Part shown: in pieces, positions 42,141-57,710 of the stretch | How positions within the stretch are numbered: position 1 is the stretch's first letter | Layout: every line of letters starts with the position of its first letter | NCBI RefSeq assembly: GCF_000006445.2 | Contig: NC_006045.2 | Location: forward strand, 868,001 to 932,000 | Source of the DNA: Debaryomyces hansenii CBS767 | Taxonomy: Eukaryota; Ascomycota; Pichiomycetes; Serinales; Debaryomycetaceae | Direction: 5' to 3' | DNA: 64,000 nucleotides | Translations under genes and position numbers: made by a program | Notes under the pieces: model-generated | Database searches by the model: none | What the model saw: the letters and a program-made list of their open reading frames with translations, nothing else | What the model was told of the DNA's origin: nothing

Positions 42141-44006
42141 TCAGGAAATATTGAATATGATTTTTAAATCATCAACTTCATATTCAACCCTAGCTTCAAA
42201 TTCCTCATCGCCGTAGTCTTTTTTTTTGAGTTCTGAAGCTGCAAAATCGATGAAATATACAAGGCCTTCTTTTGAATAAAGAATGTTGGCTTTTCTAATA
42301 TCTGTGTGTATGATTCCATTCCGGTGAATTATGTCCAATTGTTTCTTAGCTTTCTCATATGTTTCGAGGTCCTTCGGCAACGGGACATTTTCAATATATC
42401 TGAATAAGTTGAAATACCCTATTGCAATATACAGTTCTTCATTTGTAACAGTCAATTGCCCTTTCTTTTGACGGATGTAGCAACTGTTGAACTCATGGTC
42501 CTTGGATAAAATTGAATAGCAATGTTTTTCGTTACGGTACCAGTCATCACATATCTCCCTCTTTTCTTTGCGAGAGCAATGTCTGTAATAATCTTCATTA
42601 ATGACTCGCGGATCATAGACCTTTGCAATTAGAAATTCTTTATCATCGATCGGTTCTAGTAAGAACTTCTTCAAGCAAATAGCTTCTAGTCTAACCAATT
42701 GTGTGTTGAACAAATCTCCATTTTGCACCCATACGTAATCACAGCTATTAGGCATATCAATAAATACTTTATCTTCCTTGTCTTCTTTCTCAACAGATTC
42801 TGAATCGCATGTCAGAGTACCCCGAGGTTCACTCTCACATTGTTCCGAGATATCCCTACTCAAATCCTCCACTGTCCATGCCATTCCTGATAGCTTTAGA
42901 TGTTCCTCCATCTTCTGAATCCTTTCTCGTTTCTTTTCCATTTTCGAATCTTCTTCTACTGATTTATAAATGAACGATAATAGTGACTCTCGCAAAGTAG
43001 GTTTAGCTGAATGACAGTCCCGAAGCATGTACCTGATTGGAACTATATTTGGCTCATGTGTTTCTTGTTTCAAATTGAGAATATTGTGTTCAAACGAATC
43101 AAGGTCCAATCTCACAAACACAGAGGTATATGCATCTGTTAAAATTCCCAGGTCAGTCTTGAAATGAAGCATATCGTATATAAGTTGGTCAATTTTTGCT
43201 GGATGGTTCAGAACTAATTTGAAGAAACCGTCATTACAAGTTGACATTATGGGGTCTTTTGTAACCCTTATAATACAATACGCCTGACTATCTTTAGAGA
43301 CAAGTATACCACTTCTACATCGCTGCACACCAACGGGCTCCAGTTTGTACCATATTGTTGGTTGCTCGGGGTAAACTATTGTCTGAACGTTTAAAGTAGT
43401 ATCAAGCACCGAACATATGGGCTCAACCAAATGCCAGAGATAAGCATCTCTAAAGAAACCTTCTAAAAGCCCATCGCGACGAATCAATTCGTATCTAAAG
43501 AAAGCAAAATCTGCCAAAGTTTTCTCCAACTGGTCATTCTCAATTCGATGGATGATTTCCCTCATAGTGCTAACCACTTCATCGTCCTCCATCTCTGTCA
43601 AGTAGTTTTCGTCGTATTTAAAATCCGTCAACTGTCTCCTGTGATCATTTGAGTTTCCCTTATTGTCACTACTCGAACAGCTCCCCACATTCTCTGTTTC
43701 ATATTCACACATAGGAAGGGACAAAATGAGCCGGAATAGCTTCTTAACTTGGTGGGGATATGCCTTGACAAAGTCTGTTACAAAAGCCAGATATTTAACA
43801 TCTGGAACCTTTTTAAGAAAATTGTCTAGTTCTCGATGATTTACCTTAAATAAATCATGAATTAGAATCTCATAACAAACTGTCAACACTCCCCAGCATG
43901 GATAAAAATCACGATAATCGTACATCTCTAATCCATCCTTAATAAACTTGCACATTGCAAGATACAAAGGATGGTCAGAAACCAGGCTTCTCGATATTTC
44001 AGTCAT
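42141..44006 (-). CDS. Nuclease-like/kinase family protein, copy 1 (nuclease residues lost)
   Basis: 621 codons from ATG 44006; the two codons before it start with TTG. Paralogue of the genes at 44435 and 46890. A helical N-terminal region (1-110) is followed by a PD-(D/E)XK-like fold (about 215-305), the shared YMLRDCHSAKPTLRES segment (about 326-341), an acidic linker and a C-terminal kinase (about 450-621). Kinase residues are kept: Lys462 (IAKVYDPR), His567-Thr-Asp569 with Asn574, and Asp587-Phe-Ala. The nuclease residues are not: relative to copy 2, Asp233 is Gly, Glu247 is Arg and Lys249 is Thr. It lacks the 20-residue repeat of the other copies. It is divergent from copy 2 across 428 bases. 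Function unknown; FunK1-like fungal kinases are the nearest family by layout. Confidence 0.8.
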   Translation of the reverse strand: MTEISRSLVSDHPLYLAMCKFIKDGLEMYDYRDFYPCWGVLTVCYEILIHDLFKVNHRELDNFLKKVPDVKYLAFVTDFVKAYPHQVKKLFRLILSLPMCEYETENVGSCSSSDNKGNSNDHRRQLTDFKYDENYLTEMEDDEVVSTMREIIHRIENDQLEKTLADFAFFRYELIRRDGLLEGFFRDAYLWHLVEPICSVLDTTLNVQTIVYPEQPTIWYKLEPVGVQRCRSGILVSKDSQAYCIIRVTKDPIMSTCNDGFFKLVLNHPAKIDQLIYDMLHFKTDLGILTDAYTSVFVRLDLDSFEHNILNLKQETHEPNIVPIRYMLRDCHSAKPTLRESLLSFIYKSVEEDSKMEKKRERIQKMEEHLKLSGMAWTVEDLSRDISEQCESEPRGTLTCDSESVEKEDKEDKVFIDMPNSCDYVWVQNGDLFNTQLVRLEAICLKKFLLEPIDDKEFLIAKVYDPRVINEDYYRHCSRKEKREICDDWYRNEKHCYSILSKDHEFNSCYIRQKKGQLTVTNEELYIAIGYFNLFRYIENVPLPKDLETYEKAKKQLDIIHRNGIIHTDIRKANILYSKEGLVYFIDFAASELKKKDYGDEEFEARVEYEVDDLKIIFNIS

Positions 44007-44434
44007 AGTCAAGTCATTTAAATAAATTATTCATAAGAACCTAACTCTTATATATATCTAGATCTTGAATTTGTTATGCTAAAAATATTGTAATAACGGA
44101 ATTTTGCAGGTTTATATATCCTTGGCATGCAATTGGAAAGTATTAGATTTTTTTGAATGATAGACGAAGTCAAGAAGTATTGTTTCGGAGTGTATTTATG
44201 CTGATAGAGTAAAATGCGGCATAAAATAATCTCAACCTGAATCACTATCCGAAACATCTGAAGCTTAATCGGAAGAGAATCTTCTCCAAAATCAATCAAT
44301 TACGCATTATTTAGCATATTATGTGTAGCATAACATGTTTCAGATATGATATAAGGGGAATATTAAAGGAATACAGAAGGAATATATAACGCAAGAGTAG
44401 TCTAGTATGATGATTCGCTTTCAATAAAGTAGAT
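44007..44434. promoter_or_regulatory. Divergent promoter between kinase copies 1 and 2
   Basis: 428 bases between two start codons facing away from each other. The right-hand 120 bases (44314-44434) are repeated before copy 3 (46769-46889) with few changes, including TAGCATAACATGTTTCAGAT. The left part, serving copy 1, is different. Confidence 0.55.
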
Positions 44435-46423
44435 ATGACGGAAGCTTCCAGAGATATAATTTCACATCATCCATTGCATCTTGCAATGTGTAAATGCATT
44501 GAGGATGAATTAGAGATGTACGATTATCATGATTTTTATCCAGGTTGGGGAGTGATGACAATGAATTATCGAATTCTAATTCAGGAATTGTTTAAGGTAG
44601 AGAACTGTGAAGTAGCGAGTTTCATTAGAGAAATTCGAGACCAATATCTGGATTTTTTAACACACTTTAAGAGAAACTACCTACAACAAGTTAAGAGGCT
44701 ATTCAGGTTCATTTTATCTCTTCCAATGTGTGAATATGAAATAGAAAATATTGGCAGATATTCAAGTAGTAATAACAAGGGGAGCTCAAATAAATACAGT
44801 AAACAATTTCCGGATTTTAAATGTGATGACGGTTATTTAAAAGAGTTGGAGATGGACGAAGTAGCTCACATTGTAAGGGAAATCTTTAGTCGAACTGACA
44901 ATAGGCGATTGGGGAAAACTTTAATAGAATTTGCATTCCGTAAACATGAATTGATTCCTCGCATTGGAACTCTAGAAGGTCAATATAAACTAATGTTTCA
45001 CAATTATTTGATTCGGCCCATATGCTCAATGTTGGAGGATGCGTTAAATATCGAGACGAAAGTTGAAACAGAACGACCAGCTGCATGGAGACGAGTGGTA
45101 CCCGTTGGAGTACATTTACTGACTCGAACAGACATAGTTATCAGTAAAGGGAACCTAGTGTATTGTGTTATAGAAACGAAAAGATATCCGCTATTGCCCA
45201 AATATAATGGCAATCCATTAGATGGTATAAGAAGCCTTTTTTCAGACCAGGAAAAAATAACGAAGCAGCTCATATGCGAGATGCTTTATTTCAAGACGGA
45301 CAAGGGTATTCTCACAGATTCATATACGTCTGTATTCGTTGAACTAGACCTTGATTCCTTTGAACGCAATGTCCATAATCTGAGAGATGTAAAAACTGAC
45401 AATGAGTCAAAGATAATTCCGATCAGGTACATGATTCGGGACTGCCACTCAGCTAAACCTACGTTACGAGAATCATTATTGTCGTTCATCTATAATTCAG
45501 TAGAAGAAGATTCGCAAATGGTAATCAAGCAAGAAAGGGTCCACCGGTTGGAAGAGCATCTAAAGCTATCAGGAAAGACATTGATGAAAGCCGTTTCTAG
45601 TGATGACAGTGATGATCAGTCTGAGGGCTCTGGAAGTCGACCCGGTACAAGAGATACAGACATGTCCACTTTAAATCAGTCTGAAGGCTCTGGAAGTCGA
45701 CCCAGTACAAGAGGTACGAATGTGTCCACAATGGAAGATATTTCTGAAGATATAGGAGAGGAGGGAGAAGATATGGATGATGAGATATCTATTGATATAC
45801 CTAGTAATAACAATAACCTATACGTACAGTATGGAGGTGATTTTAACACACAATTGATTAAGCTAGAACCTATTTACTTCAAGAAGTCCTTACTAGAACT
45901 GGTGGATGCTAACGAAGTTGTAGTTGCAAAGGTCTATGATCCACGAAACATGAACAGAGATCAACATAAAATCTCTACTTCTGAACAAAGGAGATATATA
46001 TGTGATGAATGGCATAATACCGAAAAAGTATGCTATTCGATCTTATCCAAGGACACTGAGTTCAATAGTTGTTATGTTCGTCAAAAGTTTGGTAAAATCA
46101 TTATTACAATTGAAAAGCTGTATGTTGCAAAAGGATATTTCAACTTATTCAGATACATTGAGAAGGTTCCGTTGCCAAAGGACCGGGAGACATATGAGAA
46201 AGCCAAGAAACAATTGGAAATAATTCACCGGAATGGAATCGTGCACAGAGATATCAGAGAAGACAATCTTCTCTATACAAAACAAGGGTTAGTCTACATC
46301 GTTGACTTCACACATGCAAAGGCCAAAGTCAATATTTATGATAATGGGCTGGAGCACGATGATTTTGATAAGCTAAAAAGCGTGTTTCCAGGATTTGCAT
46401 TATCTGAAATGGAACCTCTGTAA
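44435..46423 (+). CDS. Nuclease-like/kinase family protein, copy 2
   Basis: 662 codons. The helical N-terminal domain (1-110) is followed by a PD-(D/E)XK-like core: Asp233 in RTDIVIS, then Glu247-Thr-Lys249 in CVIETKRY, then a helix QLICEMLYF and a GILTDSYTSVFVELD strand. A conserved CHSAKPTLRES segment is at 338-348. A tandem 20-residue Ser/Gly/Arg repeat (395-434) and an acidic run lead to a kinase: Lys499 (VAKVYDPR), His604-Arg-Asp606 with Asn611 (HRDIREDN) and Asp624-Phe-Thr in place of DFG. Only 38 residues follow the DF motif, so the C-lobe is minimal. Nuclease plus kinase resembles fungal FunK1 and Crinkler-type REase-kinase proteins; this is inference from motifs. The last 20 residues differ from copy 3. 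Confidence 0.85.
   Translation: MTEASRDIISHHPLHLAMCKCIEDELEMYDYHDFYPGWGVMTMNYRILIQELFKVENCEVASFIREIRDQYLDFLTHFKRNYLQQVKRLFRFILSLPMCEYEIENIGRYSSSNNKGSSNKYSKQFPDFKCDDGYLKELEMDEVAHIVREIFSRTDNRRLGKTLIEFAFRKHELIPRIGTLEGQYKLMFHNYLIRPICSMLEDALNIETKVETERPAAWRRVVPVGVHLLTRTDIVISKGNLVYCVIETKRYPLLPKYNGNPLDGIRSLFSDQEKITKQLICEMLYFKTDKGILTDSYTSVFVELDLDSFERNVHNLRDVKTDNESKIIPIRYMIRDCHSAKPTLRESLLSFIYNSVEEDSQMVIKQERVHRLEEHLKLSGKTLMKAVSSDDSDDQSEGSGSRPGTRDTDMSTLNQSEGSGSRPSTRGTNVSTMEDISEDIGEEGEDMDDEISIDIPSNNNNLYVQYGGDFNTQLIKLEPIYFKKSLLELVDANEVVVAKVYDPRNMNRDQHKISTSEQRRYICDEWHNTEKVCYSILSKDTEFNSCYVRQKFGKIIITIEKLYVAKGYFNLFRYIEKVPLPKDRETYEKAKKQLEIIHRNGIVHRDIREDNLLYTKQGLVYIVDFTHAKAKVNIYDNGLEHDDFDKLKSVFPGFALSEMEPL
45617..45736 (+). 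repeat. Two 60-bp tandem units in kinase copy 2
   Basis: Units 45617-45676 and 45677-45736, each coding QSEGSGSRP(G/S)TR followed by nine more residues. They lie in the linker between the nuclease-like and kinase parts. The same pair occurs in copy 3 and is absent from copy 1. Confidence 0.85.
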
Positions 46424-46889
46424 GAGACGAATAATTAATTTTTGCGTTTCTAATGATCAGGCTTGATAGTTATTTAGACGAGCGAGTGTCGATCTATCAA
46501 TATATCGTCAAGAAGCTAAATAATCTACATAGCTTACCGTGTAATTTCAAAATCACTATAAGACATGTTCGAACCGCTTGAGGTTAGATTCTTGTCAAGT
46601 TCTAAGTAAAACAAGAAAACAAGTAATTTAAAAATGGTATAACTCAAAGAAACTATACTCCGCGCAAACTGTCTATGTGACTAGATCATAGAGTGAATTA
46701 GAGAGATGAGACTAAGTCCAATTAGACTTGCCTGAAAGAGATATCTTCTGAAACAACTTTTTTGTGATGCATATAATTTGTAGCATAACATGTTTCAGAT
46801 ATGATATAAGGGGAATATTAAAGGAATACAGAAGGAATATAATACGCAAGAGTATTCTAGTATGATGGTTTGCTCACGATGAAGTAGCT
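46424..46889. other. Spacer between kinase copies 2 and 3
   Basis: 466 bases: the 3' flank of copy 2, then unique AT-rich DNA, then the duplicated 120-base promoter (46769-46889). Short similarities to the 3' flank of copy 3 remain (AAATAATCTACA at 46518 and 48998; ACAAGTA near 46618 and 49112), showing the duplicated unit once extended past the stop codon. Confidence 0.55.
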
Positions 46890-48848
46890 ATGGCCGAACA
46901 TTCTAATGATCTAGCTTCGCAGCATCCATTGTATCTTGCAATGTGTAAATGCATTGAGGATGAATTAGAGATGTACGATTATCATGATTTTTATCCAGGT
47001 TGGGGAGTGATGACAATGAATTATCGAATTCTAATCCAGGAATTGTTTAAGGTAGAGAACTGTGAAGTAGCGAGTTTCATTAGAGAAATCCGAGATCAAT
47101 ATCTGGATTTTATAACAGACTTTAAGAGAAACTACCTTCAACAAATTAAGAGGTTATTCAGGCTTATTTTGTCTCTTCCTATGTGTGAATATGAAATAGA
47201 AGATATGGGAAGATATTCAAGTAGTAATAACAAGGGGAGCTCAAATAAATACAGTAAACAGTTTCCGGAGTTTAAATGTGATGACGGTTATTTAAAAGAG
47301 TTGGAGAAGGACGAAGTAGCTCACATTGTAAGGGAAATCTTTAGTCGAACTGACAATAGGCTGTTGGGAAAAACTTTAATAGGATTTGCATTCCGTGAAT
47401 ACGAATTAATTCCTCGGGATGGAACTTTGGAAGGTTCTTTTAAAGATGCTTTTGTTAGGTATTTGATTCGGCCCATATGCTCAATGTTGTGGGTTGCGTT
47501 AAATATCGAGACGAAAGTTGAAACAGAACGACCAGCTGCATGGAGACGAGTGGTACCCGTTGGAGTACATTTACTGACTCGAACAGACATAGTTATCAGT
47601 AAAGGGAATCTGGTGTACTGTGTGATAGAAACGAAAAAATATCCGCTATTGCCCAAATATAATGGCAATCCATTAGATGGTATAAGAAGCCTTTTTTCAG
47701 ACCAGGAAAACATAACGAAGCAGCTCATATGCGAGATGCTTTATTTCAAGACTGACAAGGGTATTCTCACAGATTCATATACGTCTGTATTCGTAGAACT
47801 AGACCTTGATTCCTTTGAACGCAATGTCCATAATCTGAGAGATGTAAAAACTGACAATGAGTCAAAGATAATTCCGATCAGGTACATGATTCGGGACTGC
47901 CACTCAGCTAAACCTACGTTACGAGAATCATTATTGTCGTTCATCTATAATTCAGTAGAAGAAGATTCGCAAATGGTAATCAAGCAAGAAAGGGTCCACC
48001 GGTTGGAAGAGCATCTAAAGCTATCAGGAAAGACATTGATGAAAGCCGTTTCTAGTGATGACAGTGATGATCAGTCTGAGGGCTCTGGAAGTCGACCCGG
48101 TACAAGAGATACAGACATGTCCACTTTAAATCAGTCTGAAGGCTCTGGAAGTCGACCCAGTACAAGAGGTACGAATGTGTCCACAATGGAAGATATTTCT
48201 GAAGATATAGGAGAGGAGGGAGAAGATATGGGTGAGGAGATATCTATTGATATACCTAGTAATAGCAATAGCCTATACGTACAGTATGGAGATGATTTAA
48301 ACACACAATTTATCAAGCTAGAATCTATTTACTTCAAGAAGTCCTTACTAGAACTGGTGGATGCTAACGAAGTTGTAGTTGCAAAGGTCTATGATCCACG
48401 AAACATGAATAGAGATCAACATAAAATCTCTACTTCTGAACAAAGGAGATATATATGTGATGAATGGCATAATACCGAAAAAGTATGCTATTCGATCTTA
48501 TCCCAGGACACTGAGTTCAATAGTTGTTATGTTCGTCAAAAGTTTGGTAAAATCATTATTACAATTGAAAAGCTGTATGTTGCAAAAGGATATTTCAACT
48601 TATTCAGATACATTGAGAAGGTTCCGTTGCCAAAGGACCGGGAGACGTATGAGAAAGCCAAGAGACAATTGGAAATAGTTCACCGGAATGGAATCGTACA
48701 CAGAGATATCAGAGAAGACAATCTTCTCTATACAAAACAAGGGTTAGTCTACATCGTTGACTTCACACATGCAAAGGCCAAAGTCAATATTTATGATAAT
48801 GGGCTGGATCAGGATGATTTTGATAAGTTAGAAGGTATATTTTTATAG
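46890..48848 (+). CDS. Nuclease-like/kinase family protein, copy 3
   Basis: 652 codons, tandem duplicate of copy 2 at an offset of 2455 bases. Motifs have the same numbering: Asp233, Glu247-Thr-Lys249, Lys499, His604-Arg-Asp606, Asn611 and Asp624-Phe-Thr. From about residue 200 to 638 the DNA is nearly identical to copy 2. Differences cluster at the first 15 residues, at 171-203 (RDGTLEGSFKDAF against RIGTLEGQYKLMF) and at the C-terminus, which ends 28 residues after the DFT. The 171-190 patch is closer to copy 1, so the gene is a mosaic. Function unknown; same caveats as copy 2. Confidence 0.85.
   Translation: MAEHSNDLASQHPLYLAMCKCIEDELEMYDYHDFYPGWGVMTMNYRILIQELFKVENCEVASFIREIRDQYLDFITDFKRNYLQQIKRLFRLILSLPMCEYEIEDMGRYSSSNNKGSSNKYSKQFPEFKCDDGYLKELEKDEVAHIVREIFSRTDNRLLGKTLIGFAFREYELIPRDGTLEGSFKDAFVRYLIRPICSMLWVALNIETKVETERPAAWRRVVPVGVHLLTRTDIVISKGNLVYCVIETKKYPLLPKYNGNPLDGIRSLFSDQENITKQLICEMLYFKTDKGILTDSYTSVFVELDLDSFERNVHNLRDVKTDNESKIIPIRYMIRDCHSAKPTLRESLLSFIYNSVEEDSQMVIKQERVHRLEEHLKLSGKTLMKAVSSDDSDDQSEGSGSRPGTRDTDMSTLNQSEGSGSRPSTRGTNVSTMEDISEDIGEEGEDMGEEISIDIPSNSNSLYVQYGDDLNTQFIKLESIYFKKSLLELVDANEVVVAKVYDPRNMNRDQHKISTSEQRRYICDEWHNTEKVCYSILSQDTEFNSCYVRQKFGKIIITIEKLYVAKGYFNLFRYIEKVPLPKDRETYEKAKRQLEIVHRNGIVHRDIREDNLLYTKQGLVYIVDFTHAKAKVNIYDNGLDQDDFDKLEGIFL
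48072..48191 (+). repeat. Two 60-bp tandem units in kinase copy 3
   Basis: Same duplicated linker units as in copy 2, at 48072-48131 and 48132-48191, with no base difference from those of copy 2 that I could find. Confidence 0.85.
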
Positions 48849-55955: not shown

Positions 55956-57710
55956 CTAGGCAACACCTGCATCTTTAAGTTTTTTGTGACGTTCTTTTTC
56001 CATCTTTATTTTTTGGAGATCCTCTTCGGTTACTAAATGATGCGTATGATTGTCAGGACTGTGGAATGATCTCGTAGGACCTTCACCTTCGATTGTATGA
56101 CAATGATCAATGGACAAATAAAACTCATCATTCACAACATCTTTCATAGTGTATCTTTGAAGTGGATCTACAATCAACATCTTTTGAATCAAATAACGAG
56201 CCTGCGTTGGTAAAAGACGAAGTAACCTGTCAGGACCCGTTGAATGCCTTCTATTGGCATCTGCGGAGGAAGAGACAGTTAAGGTATTATTCATATCATT
56301 TGCAAGCTCTTCTGTATCTGTGTCATTAGGATCAGTTATAAATGATTTGTATGACGGATCACTTACCTTAGGGATTTTCCAAGGAAATCTCTTCAAAATC
56401 ATACAACAATACATAATTGCAATAGACCATACATCCACACCTCTCGCGTCGTAACCAAAATTACTTGGTTCTAAAACTTCCGGGGCCAAATATGGATCTG
56501 AGCCAACTACGCCTCTGGATCTTACTAACCTATGATTTTCGTCTAGGTCATCTTCAGAGGGGGTGTTATTAACTTTTTCCTTTCTAAATTGCACGGCCGA
56601 GCCAAAATCAATCAATTTTAGTATACCATCGTCAGTGACCACACAATTATCCAATTTCAAATCTCTATGAGCCAAACCATTCTCTTGGAAGTAAGCAACA
56701 CCGTTAATAATTTGTTTAAAATAACATGAACATTCCTCACGAGTCATAAGTCCAGACATCACCAAATTGAAGAAATCATATGGACAATATTCCATGACAA
56801 TGTAATATTCAACTGACGTCATCTCAGTTTCTTTAATCAACTCGATTGTATGGATCAAGTTTTCATGTTTCAAATGCTGTCCTATTTTAAATTCATTTTT
56901 GACTTTTACTTTGTAGTCATGTTCATTTTCATTCGGCAATTTAGATCTGAACTTCTTAACTGCAAATATTTCATTAGGGTCGGTCTTCGAAGTAACCAAC
57001 TTAACTGATCCGCTTGCTCCCGTCCCCAATAGCTTTCCAACGTTCCCGTACTTCTTATACAAATCTGCCGAATGATGGGGCAAAATATTAGCATGTTTAG
57101 TTTTATGCTTACTATCTCCTGTGTCTGTGTTTTTGAGCTTTTTAAGGAATCTTTTCAATGATAAATGACTCAGATGACGACTATGACTCTTCGTCTTTTT
57201 GGGTATTTCCTTTTTTGCTTCGGGCAGTTGTTCAACCTTGCGACGCTGCATATGTGGTGGTATTCTTTCATCAGTCTTTGGCAGGCTACTATCATTGTTA
57301 TTGAACGAGCCATTTGACGTATTAACGGTATTATCCCTTGATTGACTTCTCGAGCTCGCGGAATTCTCATACTCAGTTCCCTCATTGGAAAGGTCTCCCG
57401 CTTCACTTTGATAACTGTGTTCTGGTTTTTTATAGATTTGCTCCTGACTACCATTGTTAGGCATGCCACTGGGATTATACATATTGTTTTTTGTGACTGA
57501 ATTGAGAGAGCTTGTAGAACTATTTTGCGATGATTGAAAAATGCCCCTAGAGCTCCTCCTTTTCAACAAAAATCTATGTGACAGTGGTGACGATGTCCTA
57601 CTCTCATTACCTGCCCTACGATTTTCCTTATTCAATGAAGTTGAAGATGAAAACAATCCTCTTAATCCACTACGGTTCTTCTTAGAATCCACAGGATCCG
57701 AATCAAGCAT
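55956..57710 (-). CDS. SAT4: Ser/Thr protein kinase of the Hal4/Sat4 group
   Basis: 584 codons. A Ser/Asn-rich N-terminal half (1-215) is followed by a kinase domain with GTGASGSVKLV, Lys in FAVKKF, HRDLKLDN and DFGSAVQF. The insert LKRFPWKIPK and the end SIDHCHTIEGEGPTRSFHS...HHL match Sat4/Hal4, a fungal kinase that stabilises Trk potassium transporters and nutrient permeases at the plasma membrane. It could be confused with Hal5, but the VMEYCPYDFFNLVMS segment favours Sat4. Confidence 0.85.
   Translation of the reverse strand: MLDSDPVDSKKNRSGLRGLFSSSTSLNKENRRAGNESRTSSPLSHRFLLKRRSSRGIFQSSQNSSTSSLNSVTKNNMYNPSGMPNNGSQEQIYKKPEHSYQSEAGDLSNEGTEYENSASSRSQSRDNTVNTSNGSFNNNDSSLPKTDERIPPHMQRRKVEQLPEAKKEIPKKTKSHSRHLSHLSLKRFLKKLKNTDTGDSKHKTKHANILPHHSADLYKKYGNVGKLLGTGASGSVKLVTSKTDPNEIFAVKKFRSKLPNENEHDYKVKVKNEFKIGQHLKHENLIHTIELIKETEMTSVEYYIVMEYCPYDFFNLVMSGLMTREECSCYFKQIINGVAYFQENGLAHRDLKLDNCVVTDDGILKLIDFGSAVQFRKEKVNNTPSEDDLDENHRLVRSRGVVGSDPYLAPEVLEPSNFGYDARGVDVWSIAIMYCCMILKRFPWKIPKVSDPSYKSFITDPNDTDTEELANDMNNTLTVSSSADANRRHSTGPDRLLRLLPTQARYLIQKMLIVDPLQRYTMKDVVNDEFYLSIDHCHTIEGEGPTRSFHSPDNHTHHLVTEEDLQKIKMEKERHKKLKDAGVA

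Follow-up and report, generated by a model that had tools for sequence, protein, structure and literature searches.

What could three adjacent genes, each joining a nuclease-like domain to a protein kinase on a single chain, be doing in a budding yeast? The genes, here called A, B and C, are three intact open reading frames (ORFs) in a stretch of 64,000 nucleotides of Debaryomyces hansenii CBS767 (contig NC_006045.2, positions 868,001 to 932,000 of the forward strand). This whole stretch is referred to as the window, and its ORFs were translated with code 12 (CTG = Ser), the organism being a CTG-Ser yeast. We give about an even chance to the reading that A, B and C are Debaryomyces single-protein toxin-antidote (killer) genes which work like SPOK, a well-studied case of one protein both killing and protecting, and that A is a resistance-only derivative. 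The observations on which it builds are the domain layout, the conserved catalytic residues, the fold class, the dead nuclease and intact kinase motifs which A shares with a homologue, the divergence of the N-terminal domain (N-domain) and the copy number.

In each of the three proteins a helical N-domain is followed by a PD-(D/E)XK-type domain, and a linker connects the latter to a minimal RIO-like kinase at the C-terminus. A helical N-terminus, a nuclease-like core and a C-terminal minimal kinase made up the layout of the original prediction, and the ORFs, the alignment and the fold searches bear it out; the presence of nuclease and kinase on one chain is likewise supported. The N-terminal helices are predicted at low confidence, residues 379-448 of B form a low-confidence stretch in the predicted structure, and the linker between nuclease and kinase is probably disordered. 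Structure prediction had been proposed as the check on the nuclease and kinase regions, and the models match a restriction-enzyme-like fold for the nuclease domain, though with weak E-values, and a RIO/Bud32-like fold for the kinase. When the whole protein was searched, the match lists were filled by kinases. SPOK-type structures were absent from the lists for the whole protein and for the nuclease domain, an absence which excludes nothing. A profile of the nuclease domain gave five matches to solved structures up to an E-value of 10, with no restriction enzyme among them. The best solved-structure profile match was Crov588 (1.9e-5), with no stretch passing alone, and the viral structure library held nothing with E < 1e-3, its top match being a Pandoravirus DUF5898 protein. 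Pfam yielded mostly weak kinase-type matches at the C-terminus (Pkinase E-values of 8.7e-6 for A, 1.5e-7 for B and 3.6e-7 for C, all falling short of the curated Pfam cut-offs).

The trio had been described as a cluster. Three adjacent genes do exist, but they are one piece of a large dispersed family and no lone cluster. A search of the D. hansenii genome (12.18 Mb, 8 contigs) with B produced at least 67 matches. From 20 genomic regions and the window, open frames were recovered which amount to 19 full-length members including the trio, and these fall into three groups, F1, F2 and F3. Many of the further matches are fragments or contain stops. The family is thus multicopy, dispersed and partly subtelomeric: F3 lies mostly near contig ends (Table 1), whereas 0 of the 10 F1 and F2 genes lie within 60 kb of one. 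One more gene of the window, at 55956-57710, matches B weakly and was rejected as a family member, as it encodes an ordinary protein kinase (Pkinase E 9e-46).

Catalytic residues were compared in an alignment of 25 sequences, made of the 19 full-length members and six database proteins, some of which represent genes already in the set, translated with a different code. The predicted D-x13-E-x-K pattern is found in B as D233, E247 and K249. Asp, Glu and Lys occupy these columns in 18 of the 19 own-genome members, A being the exception, and the modelled core fold with D/E/K on neighbouring strands is that of the PD-(D/E)XK superfamily. The spacing is D-x13-ExK in the nine nuclease-intact F1 and F2 members and D-x16 in the nine F3 members. 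Q278 is kept in 19/19. In the kinase, the Asp of the HxD motif is present in all members except C5:583804, where it is Asn (18/19), and the Asn after HxD, the DF pair and the Lys at 499 are each present in every member. The family might be a relic of former killers, now fixed, decaying and inactive, with intact frames that are recent or kept by conversion. The many broken copies and fragments would suit such a history, as would the persistence of a kinase-dead copy. The retention of the nuclease residues in 18 of 19 members argues against it, and so does the ratio of nonsynonymous to synonymous change (dN/dS) of the nuclease domain, 0.11 to 0.16 in the pairs B/C, B/D1 and B/E5; we hold this history to be quite unlikely.

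One copy of the trio was expected to have a dead nuclease, and this copy is A: it has G233, R247 and T249 where the other members have D, E and K, and its kinase motifs (HTD, N and DF) are intact. P0010, a database protein 84% identical to A, likewise misses the nuclease residues. The two were compared part by part, with Ser/Leu differences attributable to CTG set aside. Their nuclease domains are identical at 73 of 78 positions (94%), the remaining parts up to residue 378 at 88-91% and the linker at 18 of 36 positions. Over the nuclease domain, A and B differ by a dN of 0.42 at a dS of 0.87, and B and D1 by a dN of 0.115 at a dS of 0.88. In the A lineage this domain therefore changed fast and was then kept about as well as that of an active copy. 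Since fast change followed by retention is the pattern of a maintained pseudonuclease, A looks like one, with kinase motifs intact, as far as its sequence can tell. By analogy, a dead nuclease beside an intact kinase, as in both A and P0010, is how a resistance-only allele would be expected to look.

Close paralogues share a nuclease-kinase core which is more alike than the N-domain, and nearly identical in some pairs. In 9 of 9 close pairs, chosen by us out of 171 possible, amino acid differences cluster in residues 1-225 (p 2.8e-3 to 4e-26, hypergeometric); these p-values assume independent sites, an assumption broken by conversion tracts, and the F3 pairs have members in common. For B and C, 28 of 48 differences fall in this region (p 4e-4), and for S43 and S40 the count is 71 of 79 (p 4e-26). 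The dS of the latter pair is 1.22 over residues 1-110, 0.53 over residues 111-225 and 0.00-0.03 through nuclease and kinase. In other pairs, such as the two C6 genes, the core differs too (34 of 82 amino acid differences). Differences clustered in the N-domain are what one would expect if a toxin-antidote core stayed constant while its specificity was exchanged. Host defence would also be compatible with an N-domain that varies more than the effector core it is joined to; in this scheme the N-domain would recognise invading DNA such as linear killer plasmids or transposons, and the kinase would sense or license the nuclease, with no antidote role. The restriction-enzyme-like nuclease and the multicopy subtelomeric arrays point the same way. 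However, a maintained nuclease-dead copy is unexpected for a defence nuclease unless it acts as a regulator, and subtelomeric enrichment with frequent decay fits selfish genes at least equally well. Host defence seems to us an unlikely explanation.

If A, B and C are SPOK-like toxin-antidote genes, the variable N-domain would determine the specificity for a partner or target, the PD-(D/E)XK domain would damage DNA, and the C-terminal RIO-like kinase would neutralise the nuclease of its own type. Once the antidote is lost, cells or spores which had received the protein without the gene would die, and toxicity coupled to an antidote in this way could serve drive or other selfish spread. B and C would be intact killer/resistance genes. 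A would be derived from such genes and confer resistance only, and it would owe its retention to the kinase and to the inactive nuclease scaffold.

Several observations weigh against this reading. Between A and P0010 the kinase is 82% identical, below the 94% of the dead nuclease; the order is the same between B and P0002, in which the nuclease is intact (nuclease 96%, kinase 88%). In the close pairs, silent third-position differences are as concentrated in the N-domain as the amino acid differences are, and dN/dS of the N-domain is below 1 in 13 of 13 pairs. Positive selection on the N-domain was rejected on the latter count, and the two facts together indicate swapping or conversion instead: recombination or conversion maintains a common core beneath different N-domains among recent copies. 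The sole dN/dS above 1 among all pairs and parts belongs to the S43/S44 kinase (1.49, on 12 versus 2 changes). The distant pairs B/E5, B/D1 and A/B, which were left out of the clustering test, have no silent-site excess in the N-domain. Then there are the weak Foldseek E-values of the nuclease domain and two absences: the SPOK QxxxY motif at the conserved Gln was found in 0 of the 19 members (QMVYY occurs in the members C1 and C2 only, and elsewhere in the protein), and the SPOK C-x3-C-x13-C-x5-H-x7-H cluster before the kinase in 0 of 19, even with loosened spacing.

The kinase-negative F1 copy C5:583804-585582 (E5; L032:805-2580) counts on the same side. Its nuclease residues are intact, the kinase has HRN for HRD and the C-terminus is shortened. 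As the database cluster of its product has 11 member sequences, such a natural allele seems to be tolerated. A simple antidote model predicts it to be lethal unless it is protected in trans or silent. The copy may be silent or be shielded in trans by the remaining F1 members; alternatively, the antidote may not be the kinase. Furthermore, nuclease-dead and kinase-dead copies stand at only 2 to 1 among the 35 genes examined, a weak asymmetry in too few genes to weigh.

The range of the family bears on the question as well. In three database searches, run at cut-offs of 1e-3, 10 and 10, the yields were 15, 21 and 17 proteins respectively, and one of the searches at cut-off 10 gave six further short kinase-type matches (E 0.018 to 8.7). 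Relatives with an organism name, a minority of the hits, came from Debaryomyces hansenii, Debaryomyces tyrocola and Priceomyces carsonii only. With named relatives confined to Debaryomyces and Priceomyces, common descent with SPOK is unproven. No relative from filamentous fungi or Pezizomycotina was among the named hits of these searches, which need exact shared words, so that distant homologues may be missed. An atypical kinase-nuclease fusion might instead have an ordinary cellular role in DNA repair or stress signalling, given the RIO/Bud32-like fold of its kinase and the position of all F1 and F2 genes away from contig ends. A housekeeping family would hardly show tandem amplification, broken copies and N-domain mosaicism, and named relatives come from two genera only; we find such a role very improbable.

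Two other families had been brought into the comparison. Pfam contains models for both FunK1, a fungal kinase family which we take to be PF17667, and the N-terminal Crinkler domain. Neither the FunK1 nor the Crinkler domain matched the three trio proteins or six other F1-F3 proteins at E-values up to 1; membership in either family was rejected for these nine proteins, and the comparison did not hold. A secreted or inter-cell effector of Crinkler type would be in keeping with the nuclease-plus-kinase layout reported for this wider class (Zhang et al. 2016, as cited in PMC12693581). The missing Crinkler domain, together with an N-terminus which by eye has no hydrophobic leader, leaves this only the slightest chance.

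The same genome harbors a fourth group, F4, in which DUF3698 (PF12479) takes the place of the nuclease before a similar kinase. A DUF3698 search gave 38 matches, in 20 distinct open frames of at least 590 residues and in shorter or broken frames; 14 control genomes gave none. The group is spread over contigs C1-C7 and is often subtelomeric (for example L051-L062 and L039:926-2851). The 17 sequences aligned correspond to 16 genes, L050 being a truncated copy of L057. In 15 of these genes the PD...GDYK motif is intact, and an HND/DFG kinase follows DUF3698 in all 16. L059 (C6:1754109) reads TN...GDYN, hence is nuclease-dead, with HND and DFG intact. Judged by these motifs, DUF3698 looks like a PD-(D/E)XK nuclease. 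F4 resembles F1-F3 in layout, in length, in having one nuclease-dead copy and in a 'TLR' element after the nuclease. The kinases of the two sets match as profiles (probability 97.8), whereas their nuclease parts do not match significantly (hhalign probability 19, P 0.0012, aligned at the TLR element), and A, B and C have no DUF3698 match among their Pfam results. At least six of the nine F3 genes (at loci L039, L040, L041, L042, L043 and L044) adjoin a DUF3698-kinase frame, some head to head and others tail to tail, an adjacency which resembles the divergent A/B pair. A wider proposal, tentative and in our view more doubtful than probable, is that Debaryomyces possesses some 40 nuclease-kinase killer genes with long frames, in two groups and with interchangeable N-terminal specificity domains, which would give a budding yeast a toxin-antidote arsenal like that of the SPOKs. 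Each group would then have independently produced copies with a dead nuclease and an intact kinase, maintained as resistance genes, A among them.

The locus is laid out in Table 1. B and C are a tandem duplication, and the repeat begins about 120 bp upstream of each ATG. The trio is flanked by a kexin-like and a YTP1-like gene; its upstream neighbours are G6PD-like and kexin-like genes, its downstream neighbours YTP1-like and Fe-hydrogenase-like (NAR1-type) genes. Scans of 41-50 kb for tRNA genes and Rfam families gave no matches.

Table 1. Features of the A-B-C locus (window coordinates) and members of groups F1-F3 (contig coordinates)
Feature	Position	Strand	Evidence or remark
Gene A: N-domain, pseudonuclease, kinase; 621 residues (code 12)	42141..44006	-	ORF, motif alignment
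Gene A, inactive PD-(D/E)XK-like domain, ~residues 226-306	43089..43331	-	catalytic residues lost
Gene A, minimal kinase, ~residues 411-621	42144..42776	-	Pkinase E 8.7e-6; Asp, Asn, DF motifs kept
Intergenic stretch common to divergent genes A and B	44007..44434		
Gene B: N-domain, nuclease, linker, kinase; 662 residues	44435..46423	+	ORF, alignment
Gene B, variable N-terminal helical domain, residues 1-225	44435..45109	+	28/48 amino acid differences B vs C
Gene B, PD-(D/E)XK-type nuclease core, residues 226-310; D233, E247, K249, Q278	45110..45364	+	alignment, fold search
Two 60-bp-spaced repeats in B linker	45615..45729	+	counterpart in C at 48070-48184
Gene B, minimal RIO-like kinase, residues 449-655; HRD with D606, N611, DFT 624-626	45779..46399	+	Pfam, fold search, alignment
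Gene C: tandem paralogue of B, 652 residues	46890..48848	+	93% identical; nuclease and kinase motifs intact
Group F1	A, B, C; tandem pair D2 (C4:1069105) and D1 (C4:1071319); C5:583804 (E5)		
Group F2	C6:1105349, C6:1216448; tandem pair C3:356678 and C3:359619		
Group F3 (9 copies)			near edge <=60 kb from contig end in 8/9

How far, then, does the comparison with known systems reach? The original prediction of a self/non-self or element-control system came near the mark, but it did not name the nearest functional precedent, the SPOK spore-killer design. SPOK3 is described as domain 1, a nuclease at ~214-325, an unstructured region at ~400-490 and a kinase at ~539-700 (PMC6660238). Protein B (N-domain 1-225, nuclease 226-310, low-confidence stretch 379-448, kinase 449-655) matches it in order and rough size. 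According to the same account, killing by SPOK goes through the nuclease and is abolished in K240A, protection goes through the kinase and is abolished in D667A, and the Spok2 of strain A is a natural allele with mutations in the nuclease domain which retains resistance (PMC6660238). The corresponding nuclease Lys (K249) and kinase Asp are each present in 18 of 19 family members, and A lacks the nuclease residues. SPOK1 without resistance causes DNA damage in E. coli and switches on a DNA-damage reporter in S. cerevisiae, with a worse effect in rad51 (PMC9972908). As reported for the SPOKs (Spok1-4 of Podospora and the FuSpoks of Fusarium), the trio family consists of single proteins, is multicopy, contains pseudogenes and undergoes conversion between paralogues. 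Some of the Fusarium homologues are working toxin-antidotes, and four others had no effect on yeast growth when tested (PMC12693581). SPOKs have an N-terminal coiled coil with variable repeats; helices are predicted, at low confidence, in the N-domain of the trio. SPOKs differ in their hosts: they have so far been reported throughout Pezizomycotina (PMC12693581), whereas the trio family belongs to a budding yeast. With the QxxxY motif and the Cys/His cluster missing and homology not established, the trio is not filed as SPOK. In the open-licence PubMed Central literature, as far as its excerpts go, nothing linked SPOK-like nuclease-kinase proteins to Debaryomyces and DUF3698 was not mentioned. 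The tdk killer meiotic drivers (IPR013902), each of them a single-gene killer, have nine homologues in D. hansenii, and some of these homologues seem to be broken (PMC12930445). The tdk drivers are a different type of protein from the trio, and the excerpted account of tdk describes no nuclease-kinase fusion (PMC12930445). If the SPOK-like reading of A, B and C is true, natural variants alone (nuclease-dead, intact, kinase-negative and N-domain chimeras) could separate the roles of the three domains, and nuclease-kinase killers would extend to budding yeasts, in a food yeast for which tdk-type homologues have already been reported (PMC12930445).

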